Below, piece by piece: positions 12,078-35,003 of a stretch of 49,228 nucleotides of DNA. The DNA lies in assembly GCA_016188575.1 (NCBI GenBank), contig JACPHN010000214.1, positions 1 through 49,228 of the forward strand, given 5' to 3'. Under the pieces are notes generated by a model that saw only the letters and a list, made by a program, of their open reading frames with translations, made no database searches and was not told the DNA's origin. Each line of letters begins with the position of its first letter. The stretch's first letter is position 1. Position numbers and translations under genes: made by a program. This DNA comes from Candidatus Schekmanbacteria bacterium (GTDB lineage Bacteria > CSSED10-310 > JACPHN01).

Positions 12078-13310
12078 GTGTCTGTAGCCCGCGCTCTTGT
12101 TACCGTTGTTGCGCTATCTGGTGCGGTGTTGCTCGCGCGGCTCGGGGCTGGTGCAGGCGCCGCGGCGGCACCGCCGGCGAAAACCGGGGCGGCGTTGTCT
12201 CCGTCCTTCGCTGCTCTCGGGGCGCGCCCCACGCTCGCTTCCACCGTGAACGCCGGCGTCTTCTACTACACGTGGTATGCCCCCATCGTCCACCCGGGCC
12301 ACTGGTGGCAGGGATACGCCAATAATCCGAAGCTCGGCGAGTATTCGTCCGCGGACCCCGCGATCGCCGAGCTTCACAACGGCATTCTTGACATGGGGGA
12401 CGGCCCCACGAAGAACATTCTCCTCATCGAGTGGTGGGGGTCCGACACTCCTGCCGGCAAGTGGCTCGAAGAGGGCTGGCTCCTGGCTCCTTCCAGCCAA
12501 AAGCTGCAGTTCGCCGTCGTCTACGACGTGGCGGTGCGGATGTGGGAGAAGTTCGGGACCGTTCCGGAGCGAGGCTTCGACCTGGCCAACGACACCGTTC
12601 GTTTCACCATCATCGAGGACATCGTCGACGCCGTCGATCGCTTCGCCAAGCTGCCGAACTACCTCCACATCGGCGGCGAGCCGGTGATCTACATTTACCT
12701 CGCGCGCGAGATGCGCGGGCTCGTCCGCGAGGTCATGCCCGCCGTCCGCCGCCACACCGAAGCCAGGACCGGGAAGGTGCCCTATATCATCGGCGACGAG
12801 CTGCAGTGGAGCGCCCTGGGAAATCCACCGGCCTTCATGGAACGCGCCGTCGCGTACGACGCCGTGACGTGCTTCAGTTGCTACGACAAGCGCGTCGCCG
12901 CGCAAGCCGCGGGGAGCGCGGAGAGATACGCCGGCATGCTCGCCGAGCACCTCTACCCCGCCGTGCTCGAGATGGTTACCCAGGCGACCACCGATCGCGC
13001 CCGGCCACTCGCGTTCGTCCCGTCGGTGTTCCCCCAGTTCGACGACCATGCCATTCGCGTCGGCAACCCGAGGCTGCACCTCGTCGAGTACGAAAAGCAG
13101 TTCTCGCGGATGCTCGAGCGCGCCGCCACCTTTGCCACACCGTTGTGGCCAGAGAGCTGGGGGATGGTCGCCGTCTATTCCTTCAACGAGTGGCACGAGG
13201 GCACCACGATCGAAGAAACCGCTGCCGGAACGGTGACCAACACCGGTCACGCTCAGTATGGGACGAGCTTGCTGAGCTCGCTGCAGGCGTATCACGCGAG
13301 CCGGCGATAA
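12078..13310 (+). CDS. Secreted GH99/WbsX-like glycoside hydrolase family protein
   Basis: A 410-residue exported protein. The GTG at 12078 follows GCGAGGA at 5 bases and opens a signal peptide (VSVARALVTVVALSGAVLLA). The mature part begins GVFYYTWYAPIVHPGHWWQG and ends with YSFNEWHEGTTIEET; this FYYTWY start and the NEWHEG(T/S)xIE motif are hallmarks of the GH99-like/WbsX group, whose enzymes act on mannose-rich or related glycans. Between them are the expected TIM-barrel strands (EPVIYIYLAREM, KVPYIIGDELQWS). The reaction in this organism is unknown. It is transcribed alone from the promoter at 11950 and is followed directly by a palindromic element. Confidence 0.8.
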   Translation: MSVARALVTVVALSGAVLLARLGAGAGAAAAPPAKTGAALSPSFAALGARPTLASTVNAGVFYYTWYAPIVHPGHWWQGYANNPKLGEYSSADPAIAELHNGILDMGDGPTKNILLIEWWGSDTPAGKWLEEGWLLAPSSQKLQFAVVYDVAVRMWEKFGTVPERGFDLANDTVRFTIIEDIVDAVDRFAKLPNYLHIGGEPVIYIYLAREMRGLVREVMPAVRRHTEARTGKVPYIIGDELQWSALGNPPAFMERAVAYDAVTCFSCYDKRVAAQAAGSAERYAGMLAEHLYPAVLEMVTQATTDRARPLAFVPSVFPQFDDHAIRVGNPRLHLVEYEKQFSRMLERAATFATPLWPESWGMVAVYSFNEWHEGTTIEETAAGTVTNTGHAQYGTSLLSSLQAYHASRR

Positions 13311-22880: not shown

Positions 22881-23612
22881 GTGCCATGCTCAGGAGGTAT
22901 GCGAAAACCTATCGAGATAACTGAACGTTGCTATACTCCCGGTCAAGCCGCCCAACTTCTTGGTGTCAACGTGTTCACGCTTCGAACTTGGGCCCGCGAT
23001 GGCAAAATCGCCTCGGTCAAGACGGTAGGTGGCCATCGAAGAATTCCTCAGTGGGTCGTCGACCAAATGCTTGGCAAGCAAACTCAGCGTGGCGCTCGGT
23101 TGCGAGTGGCTATCTATGCGCGTGTCAGCACGAAGAAACAGGCTGAGATGGGCAATCTCGTGCGCCAGAAGGACCGACTATTCGAACATGCGATTAGCAG
23201 TGGGTATGACGTGGTGGCAAGCTTTTCCTAAGTCGCGAGCGGAGTCAATGAGAAGCGCCGTGAGCTTGGAAAGCTTTTGGACCTGGTTTTCGGACGCAAG
23301 ATCGATCGGGTCATCGTTGAGTATCGAGACCGCCTTGCTCGGTTCGGATACGATTACCTCGAGCGGACCTTCGGCGCATTCGACGTGCGGGTCGAGGTAC
23401 TCGAGGCCGAAAAGAAGGAACATACAGAAGAACTGGCCGACGATTTGTTGGCTATTATCCGTTCCTTCGCTGCGCGCCTTTATGGAGCCCGCGGCGGTAA
23501 CGCAATAAAAAAATGGCAGAGGATCTACTGGCGGGGCAGTTTCCACCGTCGGATCTCGACAATTGCGCGTAGTACGACGGAATTTGTTTTCGGGACCAGA
23601 AGATGTCGGTGA
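22881..23612 (+). pseudogene. tnpA: IS607 TnpA serine recombinase, interrupted by in-frame stop
   Basis: The frame from GTG 22881 (or ATG 22899) gives an N-terminal MerR-like helix-turn-helix (YTPGQAAQLLGVNVFTLRTW) and a small serine-recombinase domain with the catalytic serine in IYARVSTKKQ (S77 from ATG 22899). At 23229-23231 a TAA stops it after VVASFS. The same frame then continues without another stop to 23612 with conserved recombinase text (VASGVNEKRRELGKLLDLVF, then IVEYRDRLARFGYDYLE). One base change, probably GAA to TAA, explains it. The full product would be about 237 residues. It overlaps tnpB by 10 bp. The element is therefore likely unable to move by itself. Confidence 0.85.
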
Positions 23613-25141
23613 AAAAGAAAAAGGTTGTGTCGAGGCCGAAACGGACGATCCAAAGTGAGTGGTTCCCTGAGGCGGATCCCACCCTTGAAGCGATGCCGAA
23701 CCCGTGGAAAGCACTCGGAGAAACCGTGCTTGAAACGGAGCTGCGGCTTTTCTGTCGAGCGGCCAGGTGGGCTTACAACGCGTTACGACAAGGGCGAAGC
23801 CGGGAAGACCTCAAGATACAAGGTCAGGATCTTCACGGCCTCAATAGTCGTTACGTAGATGAGGCCATACAATGGGCAACCGAGATCCTGGCTTCCCAAA
23901 AGGAGCGTCTTCCGGGCCAGATAGCAGACCTCGAGGAGAAGATTGCTCGTACTGAGAAGAAGCGATCGAAAGCCGAGCGCCTCGAACGAGCACTCGGAGG
24001 CTATGATTCCCGGCTGAAGAAACTACGCAAGGATCACGACGAGCTGGTAGCCCACCAAAAGGCCGGAACGGTTCCGCCCGCGATCTTCGGAGGCCGCAAA
24101 GCGTTTGAGGAACGATGCCAAGGCAAGATCTCCAGGGCCGAATGGCGTGCTCGACGGCGCAATCGCCTGATCTGTCGCGGCGACAAGACCAAGAACGGCA
24201 ATCCGCACCTACGCATTTTCGTGGACGACACAGGCCATTTTCGCTTGGAAGCGGCCCTTTCGCATCTTGTCGACAAGGGAAAAAACGCACCCCGCATAGG
24301 TGGCGGTCTTTTCGTGCCACCCAAATATCGACAGGATCTGCATTTCGCCGTATTAGACGGATCTCCCTACACCGTTGAGATCCTCCGAGGAGAAGATGGA
24401 CGCTACCGGGCACACATCACGATCGAGGTAGACGTAGCGGTCTTGGCCGTGCGCGTGGGCCCGAAAGCGTTGGGAGTGGACCTCAACCCCGACCGAACCT
24501 CGCTGGTGGAAACGGATGCCTCTGGCAACGCGATCGACCGGCGGACGGTCCTTCATCCCGAGCTCGAACATGCGCGACGGAACAAGCGAGACGTACGGAT
24601 CGGGGAGATCGCGGCCGAAATCGTCGAATGGGCGTGCGCGTGTCGAGCCGGCTTGGTGCTGGAGAACCTCTCTTTCACGCAAGGCCGTCTCGATACGGAC
24701 AAGCGTTTCAATCGCATGGCGTCGCAGTTTGCCTACCGGCGCTTACAGGCGGCGATTCTTCGGCAGGCCATGGAGCGAGGCGTTGAGGTCGTGTTGGTGC
24801 CAGCAGCCTACAGCTCGGCCGAGGGCGTGCTGAAGTATGCCCGAGACCGAGGCATGAGCGACCATGAAGCGGTCGCGTACGTTCTCGCGCGGCGAGGTCT
24901 AGCAGGCAGAAAACACGGACGAATGCCGCGAGAACGGGTCACTGCCAGCGTGCGGGCTCGGATCATGGAGCTCGTCAGGGACCTGACGAATCATCGGCGA
25001 GAGGTCAAGGCAAAACTCCTAAATTCTGAGCCAAGCGATCAAGAAAGGCTCAAGAATCGTATTCGAACGGTGGGCCGCTGGATCGGGCGGCTCGCGAAAT
25101 GGCAACAACTCAATCACGGCGGTCGGGCATGGTTTGTCTGA
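23603..25141 (+). CDS. tnpB: TnpB RNA-guided nuclease (IS607 family)
   Basis: A 512-residue TnpB, ancestor-type of Cas12. RuvC acidic residues appear intact: D293 in ALGVDLNPDR, E354 in GLVLENLSF and D420 in GMSDHEAVAYVLARRGL. In many relatives of this IS607 branch the third residue is replaced, so its presence is notable. A basic N-terminal part and a coiled region (residues about 95-150, rich in K and E) precede the catalytic core. The usual CxxC zinc finger is not seen. TnpB cuts DNA guided by an RNA from the element's right end, which helps the element persist. The start ATG at 23603 lies within tnpA. Confidence 0.88.
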   Translation: MSVKKKKVVSRPKRTIQSEWFPEADPTLEAMPNPWKALGETVLETELRLFCRAARWAYNALRQGRSREDLKIQGQDLHGLNSRYVDEAIQWATEILASQKERLPGQIADLEEKIARTEKKRSKAERLERALGGYDSRLKKLRKDHDELVAHQKAGTVPPAIFGGRKAFEERCQGKISRAEWRARRRNRLICRGDKTKNGNPHLRIFVDDTGHFRLEAALSHLVDKGKNAPRIGGGLFVPPKYRQDLHFAVLDGSPYTVEILRGEDGRYRAHITIEVDVAVLAVRVGPKALGVDLNPDRTSLVETDASGNAIDRRTVLHPELEHARRNKRDVRIGEIAAEIVEWACACRAGLVLENLSFTQGRLDTDKRFNRMASQFAYRRLQAAILRQAMERGVEVVLVPAAYSSAEGVLKYARDRGMSDHEAVAYVLARRGLAGRKHGRMPRERVTASVRARIMELVRDLTNHRREVKAKLLNSEPSDQERLKNRIRTVGRWIGRLAKWQQLNHGGRAWFV

Positions 25142-30222: not shown

Positions 30223-30584
30223 CCGCTGACAGCGCCAGGGCGGCGATCAGCAGCACGAGGCGCGCGGGTTCCCGCCAGCTCGGCGAGATATGGGGCTGAC
30301 CAAGATTCGGCCATGGCGCGAGGCACCGAGCGCAAGCGAGAAGTCCGGCGTCGGCCGAATGTCGGGTTTCGTCCTTTCCATTTCTTCCTGGCAAAGCCTG
30401 CGGTCAGCAGAGGCGCGATCCATCGCGCCCCAATGCCGGGCTGGGGATAATCGCGACCGGCTGGAAGCCGGCCCCACTGTCAAGCTCCTCCAAAGTGTGG
30501 AGCCGGCTTCGAGCCGGCGGTTGGCGGCGCAAGGTGCAAAGCCGATTCGGGCGACGCCGGTTGTTGTCCCGCGCGAATCAGCGA
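30223..30584. other. Intergenic region with a pair of similar hairpins
   Basis: No gene is supported. Two small hairpins built on a CCGGCT/AGCCGG core (about 30459-30477 and 30501-30521) lie on either side of about 25 bp whose ends also pair, which looks like a bacterial interspersed palindromic pair. Confidence 0.45.
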
Positions 30585-30698
30585 GTCGGAACAACCGGGC
30601 TTTTCCCGCAGCCCCGTTCTTCCGACGCGCGGCCTCGGAAGAAAGTGCGGCTTCAGCGGCGCCGGTCCTCCGGCCTCCCCTGAAAGCCGTTGTTCGGC
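30585..30698 (-). other. attC-like site 3 (downstream of hicA)
   Basis: Read on the minus strand it opens with GCCGAACAACGG at 30698, 9 bp beyond the hicA stop, and closes with GTTGTTCCGAC at 30585. The ends are complementary over about 18 bases with small bulges. An internal 9-bp hairpin (TTCTTCCGA with TCGGAAGAA, 30627-30653) lies in the loop. The end-to-end pairing is fuller than in a standard attC and the right core is poor, so this site is less sure than the other two. Confidence 0.4.
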
Positions 30699-30707
30699 AG
30701 TCGATGC

Positions 30708-30926
30708 TCACTCGAGCTCCGACCTTGCCAATCCGGACTGCCGAATGATGGAGCATAGGGTGCCGATCTTAATCTCCTTGTGGTCAGGCACCGGGACAGT
30801 CACGGTGCTCTCCCCTACCTTCTTCTGCATGACCACGTGACTGCCACGCATGCGCACTTCCGCAAAGCCGTGCCTCTCGAGGATTCTGCAGACCTCTGCC
30901 CCGGAGAGCTTCCGGAGCTTACCCAA
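30708..30926 (-). CDS. hicA: HicA mRNA interferase toxin
   Basis: A 72-residue HicA. It has the double-stranded-RNA-binding-like fold pattern (LSGAEVCRILERHGFAEVRM) and the catalytic histidine H30 in RGSHVVMQ, followed by the conserved strand VPVPDHKEIKIGTL and IIRQSGL. HicA cleaves mRNA and stops growth until HicB is restored. The TTG start at 30926 follows GAGG at 6 bases and overlaps the end of hicB by 8 bp, so the toxin is translated after its antitoxin. The pair is flanked by attC-like sites and is probably an integron cassette, a common home for toxin-antitoxin genes. Confidence 0.88.
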   Translation of the reverse strand: MGKLRKLSGAEVCRILERHGFAEVRMRGSHVVMQKKVGESTVTVPVPDHKEIKIGTLCSIIRQSGLARSELE

Positions 30927-31140
30927 GTGCGACCTCGACTTGAGTCACGTAGACCTCGGTGTGGAGCCTCTCCCGAATCTCGTCGGCGGACGCTGTCTCG
31001 AAGAACAGCTCCAACGCTTCCTGCAGGTTGGCCCGCGCCTCGCCCACGGAACTGCCTTGGCTGGCGACATCCACTTCTGGACACAGTGCGACATAGCCAT
31101 CGCCCTCCTTCTCAATGATCGCGGTCAGTTGCCTTGTCAT
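30919..31140 (-). CDS. hicB: HicB-family antitoxin (short form)
   Basis: A 73-residue antitoxin with the HicB/UPF0150 core (IIEKEGDGYVALCPEVDVAS, then GEARANLQEALELFFE). It is the short form without a C-terminal DNA-binding domain, so autoregulation, if any, is not through a visible helix-turn-helix. GAGGAGA lies 5 bases before the ATG at 31140. The attC-like site 1 ends only about 20 bp upstream of the start, as expected for the first gene of a cassette. Confidence 0.88.
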   Translation of the reverse strand: MTRQLTAIIEKEGDGYVALCPEVDVASQGSSVGEARANLQEALELFFETASADEIRERLHTEVYVTQVEVALG

Positions 31141-31161
31141 ATCTCTCCTCGCTCTTTCTCT

Positions 31162-31243
31162 GCCGAACGGGGCGCCAGGTCAGCGGCAGCGCGGAGGTAG
31201 TTTACTACTGCAGGGCGCTGTCCGCTGCATGCCGTTGTTAGGC
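31162..31243 (-). other. attC-like recombination site 1
   Basis: On the minus strand: R'' core GCCTAAC (31243-31237), then GCAGCGGACAGCGC, a short loop, GCGCTGCCGCTGACC, and R' core GTTCGGC (31168-31162). The inner arms pair over CAGCGG and CAGCGC with one unpaired A, the extrahelical base that sets strand choice in attC. The arm text GCAGCGGAC and the arm ending GGCGCCCCGTT are shared with site 2. Confidence 0.7.
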
Positions 31244-31379
31244 GTCTACGTTCTGGCGCAACTGTACATGGTCACCATGCTGAGGCCCGCACTCTACTGC
31301 CTCCCGAACCTGTGTGCAGGACTGTCCACCGATATCACTCCAGGAGGTAGTGCCTTGCCGAACGCCAGGTCACCCCCTG

Positions 31380-32011
31380 TTACGTGGCGTGCCCAATGTC
31401 AGAAATCGGCCGCGTCCGTTGCAGAGTGAGCGTCAGTCGATCGGTGCTGGCACACTGGCGGCGCAAATTCGCACAAACGTGGTCGTTCTCTCTCCCCACG
31501 GGGGCGCGTGGTTTATCCCCGGTCTCTGGCAAGGCTTTTCCTGCTGACATCGCGCGTGCAACGAGGTCAGGCTGGGGGCATGCAACGCAACAACCCCCTC
31601 GATGGGTAAGAACTAGCACCATCAACGCTGCGTCCTTGGTCCGGCCGGCACTAGCGAGAGCTCCTGCCGCCTCGAACACCGATTCATGACTCCGCTGAAC
31701 CCGGGCCGGAACTGGCCGCCCGTTGAAGTTCTGCGCCATAAGCGCATCGATCCCGTTGTTGCGATGCACCGGAATGCGGTCTAGGCCGTCCAGCAGCGCG
31801 AGTACGCCGTCGTCCGCGGTCCGACATGACTCGCGGCCCGCTTCGAGTAGTGGCGATTCCGTTTTCTCCGGGTTGGCAAGTCGTCGCCTGGCGAGGGCAA
31901 CGGCTTCCTCAGAGCTGTCGATGCCGAGTCCTCAACGCGCTCGTCGATCTTCTCCTTGAGCAGCCGTGCGTACTCCTCTGCTAGGGCACGGACTTCGTCT
32001 CATACGCTCAT
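31380..32011 (-). pseudogene. Decayed unknown cassette gene
   Basis: An ATG at 32011 with GGAG before it starts MSV, then an in-frame TGA at codon 4, then good coding text in the same frame (DEVRALAEEYARLLKEKIDE). Near 31925 the coding frame shifts by one base and continues as IDSSEEAVALARRRLANPEK, on through VHRNNGIDALMAQNFNGRPV to a stop at 31380. One nonsense change and one frameshift therefore explain it. No family recognised. It occupies the interval between attC-like sites 2 and 1. Confidence 0.6.
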
Positions 32012-32045
32012 GATCTCCGTTCTCCAGCCTGCACGGCCTGCAGAC

Positions 32046-32113
32046 GCCTAAACGGGGCGCCGGGTCAGCGGCGAGACGCTGAGCGGACCGTCCGCTGCAA
32101 CCGCTTGTTAGTC
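32046..32113 (-). other. attC-like recombination site 2
   Basis: On the minus strand: GACTAAC (32113-32107), GCAGCGGACGG, loop, GCCGCTGACCCGGCGCCCCG and TTTAGGC (to 32046). The stop codon TAA of the upstream ATPase fragment lies inside the R'' core, as is usual for cassette genes. The arm pairs with one unpaired A as in site 1, and the last 21 bases before the R' core are almost identical to site 1. Confidence 0.7.
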
Positions 32114-32701
32114 CAAATCGCCGACTGTATTCCATCGGATGCAGCCGTCCGGGGCAGGACGGTGCGGATCAAGCAGGCAGTCCAACAGCGCTTTCACTCG
32201 GCCCTTAATGTACTCGTCCGTTCGGACTCGGACCAAGGCGTTGTATGGCTTCTCGTCCTTCGCCTCCTCGCCAAAGAGCGCCACCTCGAAGCACGGTTTA
32301 CACGCAACGAGATGAACTTTTCCGCTCGCGTTTTGCCACGACAGAATGCTCTCGATCGTCCGGTTCATTCCCCAGTCCGGATTCGCTTTTCCGCTTCGGG
32401 TCTGCAGGGTGTCTGTATCGTGCAGGATCGAGAAGGACTTGGAGAACTGAAGCAGCACCCTGGCGATGGATGGAATGATCCCCTTCCCTCTAGCTCGAAT
32501 CACCTGCAAGTCCTGGTACTCGTCTGGGTACAACTCTCGCAACATGGAAAAGGCGGTGTACTCCGTGTCTCCTTCCACAACAAGCTGCCGCCCGCCAAAG
32601 AAGAACTCGTGCAGGTACGGATCACAGATGTTCAGCAGCTTCATGTTACGCTTGTCGTCTTCGCCCAGTTTGGCGCGTGAGAAGTGGTCATTACTTGCCA
32701 T
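32108..32701 (-). CDS. C-terminal TOPRIM half of a broken OLD-family nuclease
   Basis: A 197-residue frame from an ATG at 32701 that overlaps the N-terminal half by 61 bp in another frame. It begins in mid-domain (RAKLGEDDKRNMKLLNICDP) and holds a TOPRIM nuclease signature: VVEGDTEYTAF with the first glutamate, and ILHDTDTLQ for the DxD. In intact relatives the two halves are one chain of about 600 residues. It may be translated by re-initiation but lacks its own ribosome site. The stop sits in attC-like site 2. Confidence 0.65.
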   Translation of the reverse strand: MASNDHFSRAKLGEDDKRNMKLLNICDPYLHEFFFGGRQLVVEGDTEYTAFSMLRELYPDEYQDLQVIRARGKGIIPSIARVLLQFSKSFSILHDTDTLQTRSGKANPDWGMNRTIESILSWQNASGKVHLVACKPCFEVALFGEEAKDEKPYNALVRVRTDEYIKGRVKALLDCLLDPHRPAPDGCIRWNTVGDLD

Positions 32702-33741
32702 ACTCCGCCGGCAGGCAAGTTGTACAGAACAGCACGCGCCTCGCGAATCGCGGACGGGTGCAGGCAGATCTCCGGTTCATCGAGCAGCAGAACGTGCGGC
32801 CTTGCCCCTACCTCGTCGGTCGCTTCCGACAAGTATTTTAGTATTGCCCAGAGCAACGTACGTCGCGCCCCACTACCTTGATAAGCCATCGTTGAGAAGT
32901 AACCATCTTCAGTTCCCATCAGTACGTCGGGATTCGCCTTGAACGGTGAGTAGGTCTTGTCGAGATCGGTCTCCGGCCTAGCGTCAAACTTGACTTTGTG
33001 TTTTGGAAAGATCTTCTGCAAGTAGCCGGAAATCTCATTCTCAATCTTCTGGACTTCTCCTTCAGTCGCTGCTACGACTCGCGTTTGCAGGTCCTTGATA
33101 TTCTCAAGCACCAGCTCATAGTCGGACTTGTCGGCATTTGGATCTGTCTTGACACTACTGAGTTTATCCTTGAGTAGCCCAGTGATGAGCTTGGCGATTT
33201 CAGCTGCCTGCGCGTCGGGTGATGCAAACGCGTCGATACGGTGAGGCCGCGGACGCCGAGCGTTCGCAACGTTTGGCGCGCCCCAAGGGACCTGATCATC
33301 CCAGTCCTGCTTCACTACGTCATATCCGCGCCTAATCGGGTCCTTGTTTGGGCTGTCCCATGTCCACTTCTCGCGGATCAGCCATTCATTGTCTGCAGTC
33401 TTCTGAATCCACCGCATGCCGGGTGCATCGCTAAAGACAATCGTCTGCAGCTCGACCTCCGGTAGGTTGGTCGAATCCACAACGCCATTCGGGAAGTCAT
33501 CGGTGGCAAGCTTTCCTTCCTTCGAGCCTTGCTGCATCACGATTTCATAGGCGCGAAGGATGGTGCTCTTTCCCGTGTTGTTCGGCCCCACGAGGACCAC
33601 GATATCGTCTAGCTCAATCTCGACCGGCGACGCGCCGATCGACCTGAAATTCTTCACGATCAATTTGTGAAGGCGCGGCCGGCTGGCACCCTTCGGCGCC
33701 AACGGGATCGATTCAGCATCTACCTTGTTCTTGGCTGCCAC
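32641..33741 (-). CDS. N-terminal ATPase half of a broken OLD-family nuclease
   Basis: A 366-residue frame from a GTG at 33741 preceded by GGGAGGA. It is an SMC-like AAA (AAA_21/OLD) ATPase: Walker A VGPNNTGKST near residue 52, a coiled middle part, the signature region MAYQGSGARRTLLWA, Walker B HVLLLDEPEICLHP and the switch motif VMTTSHAPN. The chain then runs out of frame after about seven residues. OLD-family proteins combine this ATPase with a TOPRIM nuclease and act in phage exclusion (P2 Old, GajA of Gabija). No gajB-like helicase is adjacent. A deletion of roughly 40 codons near 32668-32679, within an 11-base sequence readable in both frames, best explains the break. Confidence 0.75.
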   Translation of the reverse strand: MAAKNKVDAESIPLAPKGASRPRLHKLIVKNFRSIGASPVEIELDDIVVLVGPNNTGKSTILRAYEIVMQQGSKEGKLATDDFPNGVVDSTNLPEVELQTIVFSDAPGMRWIQKTADNEWLIREKWTWDSPNKDPIRRGYDVVKQDWDDQVPWGAPNVANARRPRPHRIDAFASPDAQAAEIAKLITGLLKDKLSSVKTDPNADKSDYELVLENIKDLQTRVVAATEGEVQKIENEISGYLQKIFPKHKVKFDARPETDLDKTYSPFKANPDVLMGTEDGYFSTMAYQGSGARRTLLWAILKYLSEATDEVGARPHVLLLDEPEICLHPSAIREARAVLYNLPAGGVWQVMTTSHAPNWAKTTSVT

Positions 33742-33837
33742 AACGTGTCCTCCCGGTGTCCGTCCGGATTACCGGACCTTGCCAGCTTGGCCGAATTCAG
33801 AGCGGAGGCCTTGACGAAGCACAATGGGACCGTCCAC

Positions 33838-33874
33838 GGTGTCAACTACCTACGATGAAGTAGTATTTGACACC
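33838..33874. repeat. Palindrome between the ATPase gene and the ISKra4 remnant
   Basis: GGTGTCAA (33838-33845) and TTGACACC (33867-33874) with inner CTAC/GTAG. It could be an operator or the terminal repeat of the decayed transposon. Confidence 0.5.
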
Positions 33875-33893
33875 CTTTGAGAAGGACAGTCCC

Positions 33894-34648
33894 GTGACAT
33901 TGTTGCAGAATTCGCGTCTCGAGTCCATGTCCGATGCCCACTTCAAGCTCGAGTCGAGCGAAGCCTCTCGGTGCTTGTCGGCGTGTGTCGAGCAGGAAAT
34001 GAGTCGTGCAGCGGACGAGATCGCAGAGGATTTCGCCGGCATCGAGGTGCGTCTCCGGGATCTTCTGAATCGCTGCGGCAGCGAGATTACCGCGGCGCTA
34101 GCCGACCGGCTCGACGTGCGAGCGAATGGTGTCGTCGTCGACGGGAAGGCATTCCGCCGACGGCGCGAGGATGGCTCGGCTGAAATCATGTCCATCCTCG
34201 GCCCGATGCAGATTACCTACGCTGCTCATGAAGAACGCGGGGGCCATGGGGGAAAGCAGGTAGCACCGCTCAAGATGCGCATCGGTTTGGTAGGCGACTT
34301 CTGGACGCCTCGGGCGGCGAGCACCGCCGCCCTATTTGTCTTGGCAACGACGCCTGCCGAAGCGCATCGGCTGCTCGCCGCCGCTGCCGGGATCACCGGG
34401 TCGGAGAGGAGAACCGTCAGGACATCGAAGCGGTAATCGGAGCCGTGGAGATGCTGCCCGAGGTGTCCCGCGTAGCCTGCATTGCAACCTCGCTGGATGG
34501 CGTCATGGCACCTCTCAAGGACGCGAAGAAGGAGCAGGGTGGGGGCTGGAAAAGCAGCGCCCACGCAGCGGTTCAAGGAGGCGGGTTGCGCGACCGTTTC
34601 GTTGTACGATGAAAAAGGAAAACGACTTCACACCATCCGTTTCCTCAG
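33894..34648 (+). pseudogene. ISKra4-family transposase remnant
   Basis: Three consecutive frames give pieces of one ISKra4-type transposase. Frame 1 (33894 to about 34400): VDGKAFRRRREDGSAEIMSI, GPMQITYAA, LKMRIGLVGDFWTPRAASTA. Frame 2 (about 34405-34560): ENRQDIEAVIGAVEMLPEVS and CIATSLDGVMAPLKD, containing the first acidic residue of the DDE centre. Frame 3 (about 34563-34648): RFKEAGCATVSLYDEKGKRL and HTIRF. After that the resemblance ends. So it has at least two frameshifts and lacks the C-terminal half; it cannot work. Confidence 0.7.
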
Positions 34649-35003
34649 TCAAAATCTCATCACGCTTCTTGTCCTGCTCATCTGATCTCTTTATCAGACC
34701 ATCGACAAAGGTAAACCGTTCCTCTGGCCTACAGTTTCATCGCCTCATCTAGCAGCTATTTCGCACTCATCGTGTTGCACCTCCAGTTTTCATGAAACAT
34801 AACGTGCGGCGCCGCTGCCGACTTGCGGCCAGGCACCTCACTATTCTCCCGCGGATCGCGAGCCGCAAGCCCGAGTTTGGGGAGCATCAGCGGCAGCGGT
34901 GCGATTCATCGCGCCGCAACGCTCGAGCGTAGGCGACAATTCGCATCGCGCGCCAGTTTCGACGGGAGAGTTGCGCAGGGGGGAAGGATGCCAAATCGCG
35001 CCC
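34649..35003. other. Gene-free stretch with an imperfect inverted repeat
   Basis: No gene is supported. CGTGCGGCGC and CCGCTGCC (34804-34820) pair with GGCAGCGG and GCGCCGCAACG (34890-34921). The left side has ATAAC and resembles an attC arm, but no GTT-type core is found on the right, so I do not call it attC. Confidence 0.4.

Follow-up and report, generated by a model that had tools for sequence, protein, structure and literature searches.

Contig C67 of a Candidatus Schekmanbacteria draft genome (9.2 Mb in 275 contigs, 93.8% complete), analyzed here over its whole length of 49,228 b and called the window below, very probably carries a decayed cluster of attC sites lacking an integron integrase (CALIN), a class of which 2,961 members were counted in one RefSeq survey (PMC9024848). 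Read along the minus strand, the region consists of an OLD-type nuclease, an attC site, a DNA methyltransferase remnant, a second attC site, hicB-hicA, a third attC site and a truncated cassette without any open reading frame (ORF). It thus comprises three cassettes of the same orientation, each ended by an attC site, followed by a piece of a fourth (Table 1). At least two attC sites lie within about 4 kb of each other, and a search with the integron integrase model TIGR02249 returned zero matches on contig C67, which is the arrangement that defines a CALIN; with no intI on the contig and no recognizable attI, the region is not a complete integron. We regard it as an ordinary CALIN of a known kind and one of many in its genome. 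An earlier note on this DNA, made from the sequence alone, had also described a cassette cluster and let it start at 30585. The attC cluster stands, although that description was incomplete: the feature continues down to 30557, is damaged, has a repeat and an ISKra4-type insertion sequence (IS) remnant at its edges, and is not isolated, given the 30 clusters with about 60 attC sites found in the genome.

Table 1. Features of the cassette cluster and its edges in the window (strand "." where none applies)
Feature	Position	Strand	Details
attC of OLD cassette (type C)	32047-32113	-	R'' GACTAAC, R' GTTTAGG; matched by covariance models R1 and R2
attC of methyltransferase-remnant cassette	31162-31243	-	type A 3' arm, type B 5' arm; R'' GCCTAAC, R' GTTCGGC
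attC of HicBA cassette (type B)	30638-30698	-	R'' GCCGAAC; crossover GTT mutated to TTT
Truncated copy of 155-bp ORF-less cassette, positions 2-88	30557-30643	-	89% identity, E 1.4e-25; directly behind HicBA attC
OLD-type nuclease, ATPase part	32641-33741	-	AAA_15 E 7.4e-25; PADLOC Old E 2.4e-61; OLD structure 6p74 E 1.3e-7
OLD-type nuclease, TOPRIM part	32108-32701	-	OLD-like_TOPRIM E 2.1e-7; PADLOC Old E 1.1e-10
DNA methyltransferase remnant, C-terminal fragment	31380-31769	-	PADLOC MTase_II E 1.6e-9, profile positions 309-364 of 399
HicB-like antitoxin	30919-31140	-	overlaps hicA; position beside HicA; weak profiles
HicA toxin	30708-30926	-	PF07927 E 7.5e-19
ISKra4-family-like insertion sequence remnant	33755-34642	+	abuts 5' side of OLD cassette; 88% to C43:47672-48601
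216-bp repeat, MITE-like	30345-30560	.	16-bp terminal inverted repeats; inverted-repeat detection, genome copies

Three attC sites at gene junctions

All three attC sites lie within 1.5 kb, at the junctions of minus-strand genes or gene remnants where the earlier note had placed them. A covariance-model search, suggested in that note, returned matches at these sites with two different models. R1 was built from 16 attC sites, located near integron integrases of other organisms or in plasmid integrons, the variable loops of the training sites being shortened, and R2 from 18 sites of this genome; the OLD site is one of the R2 training rows, and the other two sites of the window lie outside them. 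With filters off and both strands searched, the top three R1 matches in the window are exactly the three sites (15.4 bits, E 0.11 for the OLD site; 10.9 bits each, E 1.6 and 1.7, for the others). Because a fourth match scores almost as high, what counts in R1 is that its top three matches fall close together on one strand. R2 assigns 49.6 bits (E 1.4e-9) to the OLD site, 43.4 bits (E 4e-8) to the methyltransferase site and 42.2 bits (E 7.7e-8) to the HicBA site, the next-best match in the window reaching 14.1 bits. Imperfectly paired inner arms with extrahelical bases and recognition by attC covariance models are attC traits that these sequences show.

The cores were compared with the attC consensus (R'' RYYYAAC, R' GTTRRRY). 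In a scan for R''/R' cores and arm complementarity, the methyltransferase site is complete and canonical (score 16); its R' keeps the GTT and has C instead of R as fourth base, and the site matches the A cassette's attC half at 91%. The OLD site, 88% identical over 59 nt to an attC at C43:48619-48685, has one T too many in R'. At the HicBA site the inner arms are perfect (CGGCTT/AAGCCG) and the R' position reads TTTCTTC, so that the GTT is lost. Two observations read from the letters in the earlier note were reproduced: the OLD and methyltransferase sites have the arm AACGGGGCGCC(A/G)GGTCAGCGGC in common, and an extra A is present in the inner 5' arm of the attC sites. That gene stops abut or overlap R'' is borne out, the OLD stop codon TAA sitting inside R'' and the HicA stop 9 nt before it; in the decayed methyltransferase unit no ORF of 60 aa ends at this position. 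When the attC-sense strand was folded as single strand and compared with shuffled sequences, the HicBA and methyltransferase sites gave z values of −3.6 and −2.4, respectively; the fold of the OLD site was not better than its shuffles (z −0.7). An Rfam scan of the window and of the array detected zero families.

Related sites, integrases and a repeated cassette in the genome

The three sites belong to a kindred set of about 60 in the genome, which were found when the genome was searched for further sites, as had also been proposed. R2 recognizes at least 60 attC sites at E ≤ 0.01, located on 23 contigs and forming 30 clusters under a 4-kb linkage; 150 of the first-look candidates were scored with this model, and the count is a lower bound. 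Every multi-site cluster has a single orientation for all its attC sites. Among 48 sites with available sequence, 30 are accompanied by an ORF of 60 aa or more on the attC strand that stops close to R'' (no more than 60 nt upstream and 12 nt downstream of its start), whereas the mirrored position on the opposite strand gives 6. Part of these ORFs read through the ORF-less cassette and are not genes. The cluster of the window and several others (on C162, C195, C102 and C115) lie more than 10 kb from contig ends. Clusters close to contig ends may be pieces of larger arrays, because the draft is fragmented. Beyond this genome, R1 gave matches at E ≤ 0.01 in five of seven genomes of the same phylum, none of these seven belonging to the same class.

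The absence of an integrase, another element of the earlier description, applies to contig C67 but not to the genome. Two complete integron integrases exceed the TIGR02249 cut-off (476.7 bits on C140 and 424.2 bits on C88), and integrase fragments or pseudogenes are found at C177:151678-152133 and C7:9898-10649. Aligned with IntI1, the C140 and C88 integrases keep the catalytic residues, whose roles we take to be those general to the family, and the integron-specific insertion. Both have attC sites beside them (C140:1584-1658; C88:12051-12146 and 12346-12421), on the 3' side of intI, in the direction of intI and within about 0.9-1.3 kb, the contig ending soon after. The integrase piece on C177 closely resembles the C-terminal region of the C88 integrase, which suggests that this genome has copied and lost integron platforms. 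Relatives of the integrases, at 76% to a Planctomycetota metagenome-assembled genome and 73% to Nitrospiraceae, only show that this integrase family is common to several phyla.

Alignment placed most A-type attC sites within a gene-free 155-bp unit that recurs in the genome. This cassette occupies 41 places on 26 contigs at E 3e-15 or better, and 19 of the copies cover at least 148 of the 155 positions. Its attC half, at the 3' end, scores with R2. Among 17 copies, conservation runs from GTT to GTT and falls off outside, which is the trace left by integron recombination at G/TT. About 11 near-complete copies sit directly behind another recognized attC, and a few have no recognized attC in front (C43:38663, C7:11180 and C197:26866); the copy in the window breaks off before most of its attC. 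Folded as a single strand, one copy outdoes its shuffles by a wide margin (z −12.8 and −14.8, one value per strand); the prediction has the attC arms paired to other stretches of the cassette and not to each other, which hides the cores. Compensatory changes in the hairpins are limited to 2-3 cells, a number not clearly higher than in shuffled sequences, and this covariation is too sparse for a conserved structure to be taken as proven. Rfam assigned the cassette to no family, with weak matches far below gathering scores. An exact-pattern search with the A-type attC core, which would miss diverged relatives, yielded no match in 84,980 species genomes or in IMG/VR.

The presence of one ORF-less cassette at 41 places is the single unusual feature of this case. 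It stands out because, in mobile integrons and in Vibrio cholerae, a single cassette is described as seldom repeated in tandem (PMC12901181), with the reservation that dispersed copies differ from tandem ones. We offer only tentatively the idea that the 155-bp cassette is a selfish, non-autonomous element that IntI would have multiplied to about 40 places; the 30 clusters, that of the window included, would then mark the path of an integron system sowing cassettes across its own chromosome. Its strong fold would make it a good IntI substrate, and it would have inserted mostly behind other attC sites and in a few cases at ordinary GTT sequences, as natural attG insertions. Selection or recombination may instead account for the copies. 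If IntI did amplify it, the cassette would be a good substrate with which to test natural off-target insertion.

Cargo, edges and decay of the cluster

The cassette contents read from the sequence in the earlier note, a HicBA pair, a decayed gene and an OLD nuclease, have profile support, and the decayed gene can now be named as a methyltransferase fragment, for which a Pfam search gave no match. Support for HicB is weak, its profile matches falling below their cut-offs (UPF0150 E 0.004, HicB_lk_antitox E 0.084). The two OLD parts overlap in different frames, as a result of a frameshift or of a split gene. This cargo is typical for cassettes, namely toxin-antitoxin, methylation and phage defence functions; toxin-antitoxin and methylation genes are usual CALIN cargo (PMC8618304). 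The lower GC content attributed to the cluster was only partly borne out: it is 55-62% at 31-34 kb versus about 67% in the surroundings, but the IS remnant makes up part of this dip and 22-26 kb is low as well. The second low-GC stretch encodes a 512-aa TnpB-like protein (23603-25141, plus strand) that is over the cut-off of TIGR01766, below that of NF040570 (62 bits) and without a match in Pfam.

At the 5' edge of the cluster, the ISKra4-type remnant matches NF033572 at 25 bits, far below the cut-off. Its best-matching copy in the genome starts 17 nt from an attC. Farther out, at 34895-34952, lies a REP-like stretch only about 58 bp long, of which the genome has about 20 diverged copies. At the other edge, the 216-bp repeat adjoins the truncation point of the ORF-less cassette copy on its 3' side. 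Near-full copies of this repeat are present at C39:45372-45585 (94%) and C238:100848-101059 (92%), and a part of about 107 bp occurs in about 40 places of the genome. The cassette cluster is decayed and now eroding, as indicated by the lost crossover GTT, the apparent OLD frameshift, the ISKra4-type remnant and the 216-bp repeat that truncates a further cassette. Probably only the middle cassette, flanked by two surviving GTTs, could still be excised.

Origin of the cluster and comparison with known systems

We infer that an integron integrase of the C140/C88 kind, working in trans, would have recombined these cassettes on the folded attC strand, with the crossover at G/TT in R'. Off-target insertion, intI loss and rearrangement have been proposed as origins of CALINs (PMC8618304). 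Here, the cassettes would have come to their present place by off-target, attG-like insertion, or the cluster would have been cut off from an integron. In our judgement off-target insertion or dispersal is somewhat more likely than another route, because the attC sites of this genome are dispersed over 30 clusters, of which several consist of one site far from the ends of a long contig. Several points weigh against a CALIN of this origin. No attI, integrase remnant or empty site that would mark the route was seen at the locus. Nor does the OLD cassette have a definable 5' boundary. R1 scores of single sites are near chance, the fourth match in the window reaching 10.4 bits. Finally, in a fragmented draft, larger arrays may have been split by assembly in the case of other clusters and misassembly is possible at this one. 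A comparison of synteny around a CoA-activase in 59 other genomes found only distant homologues (about 25-43% identity) and no usable synteny for an empty site.

A quite conceivable, if less probable, history is that the cluster is the relic of a complete integron that stood at this locus, whose intI and attI upstream of OLD were lost as the ISKra4-type element entered and decayed. The outcome would still be a CALIN, though one reached by integrase loss and not by off-target insertion. The IS remnant does sit beside the first cassette, where attI and intI would be expected, and the integrase pseudogenes elsewhere indicate that platforms are lost in this genome; yet no integrase remnant is found on the contig of the window, and about 30 clusters would require as many lost integrases, compared with about five integrase loci found. 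We consider it very improbable that the palindromes are mere attC look-alikes, namely REP- or MITE-like repeats scattered by a transposase. They do belong to a repeated palindromic sequence and true REP- or MITE-like repeats are nearby, but we reject this interpretation because conservation of the repeated unit begins and stops at GTT. In addition, an attC model from other phyla finds the sites, which follow gene stops in one orientation, diverse attC sequences have nothing but attC features in common, and intact integrases adjoin such sites. The least credible proposal is an ordinary defence island, in which HicBA, methyltransferase and OLD genes would be typical, assembled by other routes and with attC-like hairpins serving as transcription terminators at the gene ends, since each gene unit has one attC with R'' and R' cores beyond a mere hairpin and the same type of junction recurs at dozens of other loci in the genome.

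Our results extend the known integron carriers to a phylum that has hardly been sampled. As this genome has two complete integrases and integrase pseudogenes, and its attC sites, about 60 in number, are scattered, it provides a natural case for studying how cassettes leave the integron.

The decayed CALIN of the window resembles those surveyed in RefSeq (PMC9024848) in having at least two attC sites within 4 kb, a single orientation, a gene unit per site, no integrase nearby and the usual cargo. It differs from them in degree only: its decay is strong, and its genome has 30 such clusters along with integrases of its own. In Xanthomonas, CALINs are found outside the home integron locus (PMC12444791), and they compare with the present case as groups of cassettes at additional loci, an integrase possibly being located elsewhere in the genome; those loci are conserved across species, whereas many more loci are seen here in one genome. 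Insertion of cassettes at attG sites, for which Loot et al. 2024 is cited in PMC12444791 and PMC12901181, would explain cassettes far from attI and the few ORF-less copies without an attC before their GTT. Gene-less cassettes that act as promoters are known (PMC11014356, PMC6557892), and a gene-less cassette encoding a small RNA, sRNA-Xcc1, is mentioned in PMC6557892 and PMC12444791. The 155-bp unit is like these known cassettes in lacking a gene and being ended by an attC site, and unlike them in its 41 places in one genome and its extreme predicted fold.

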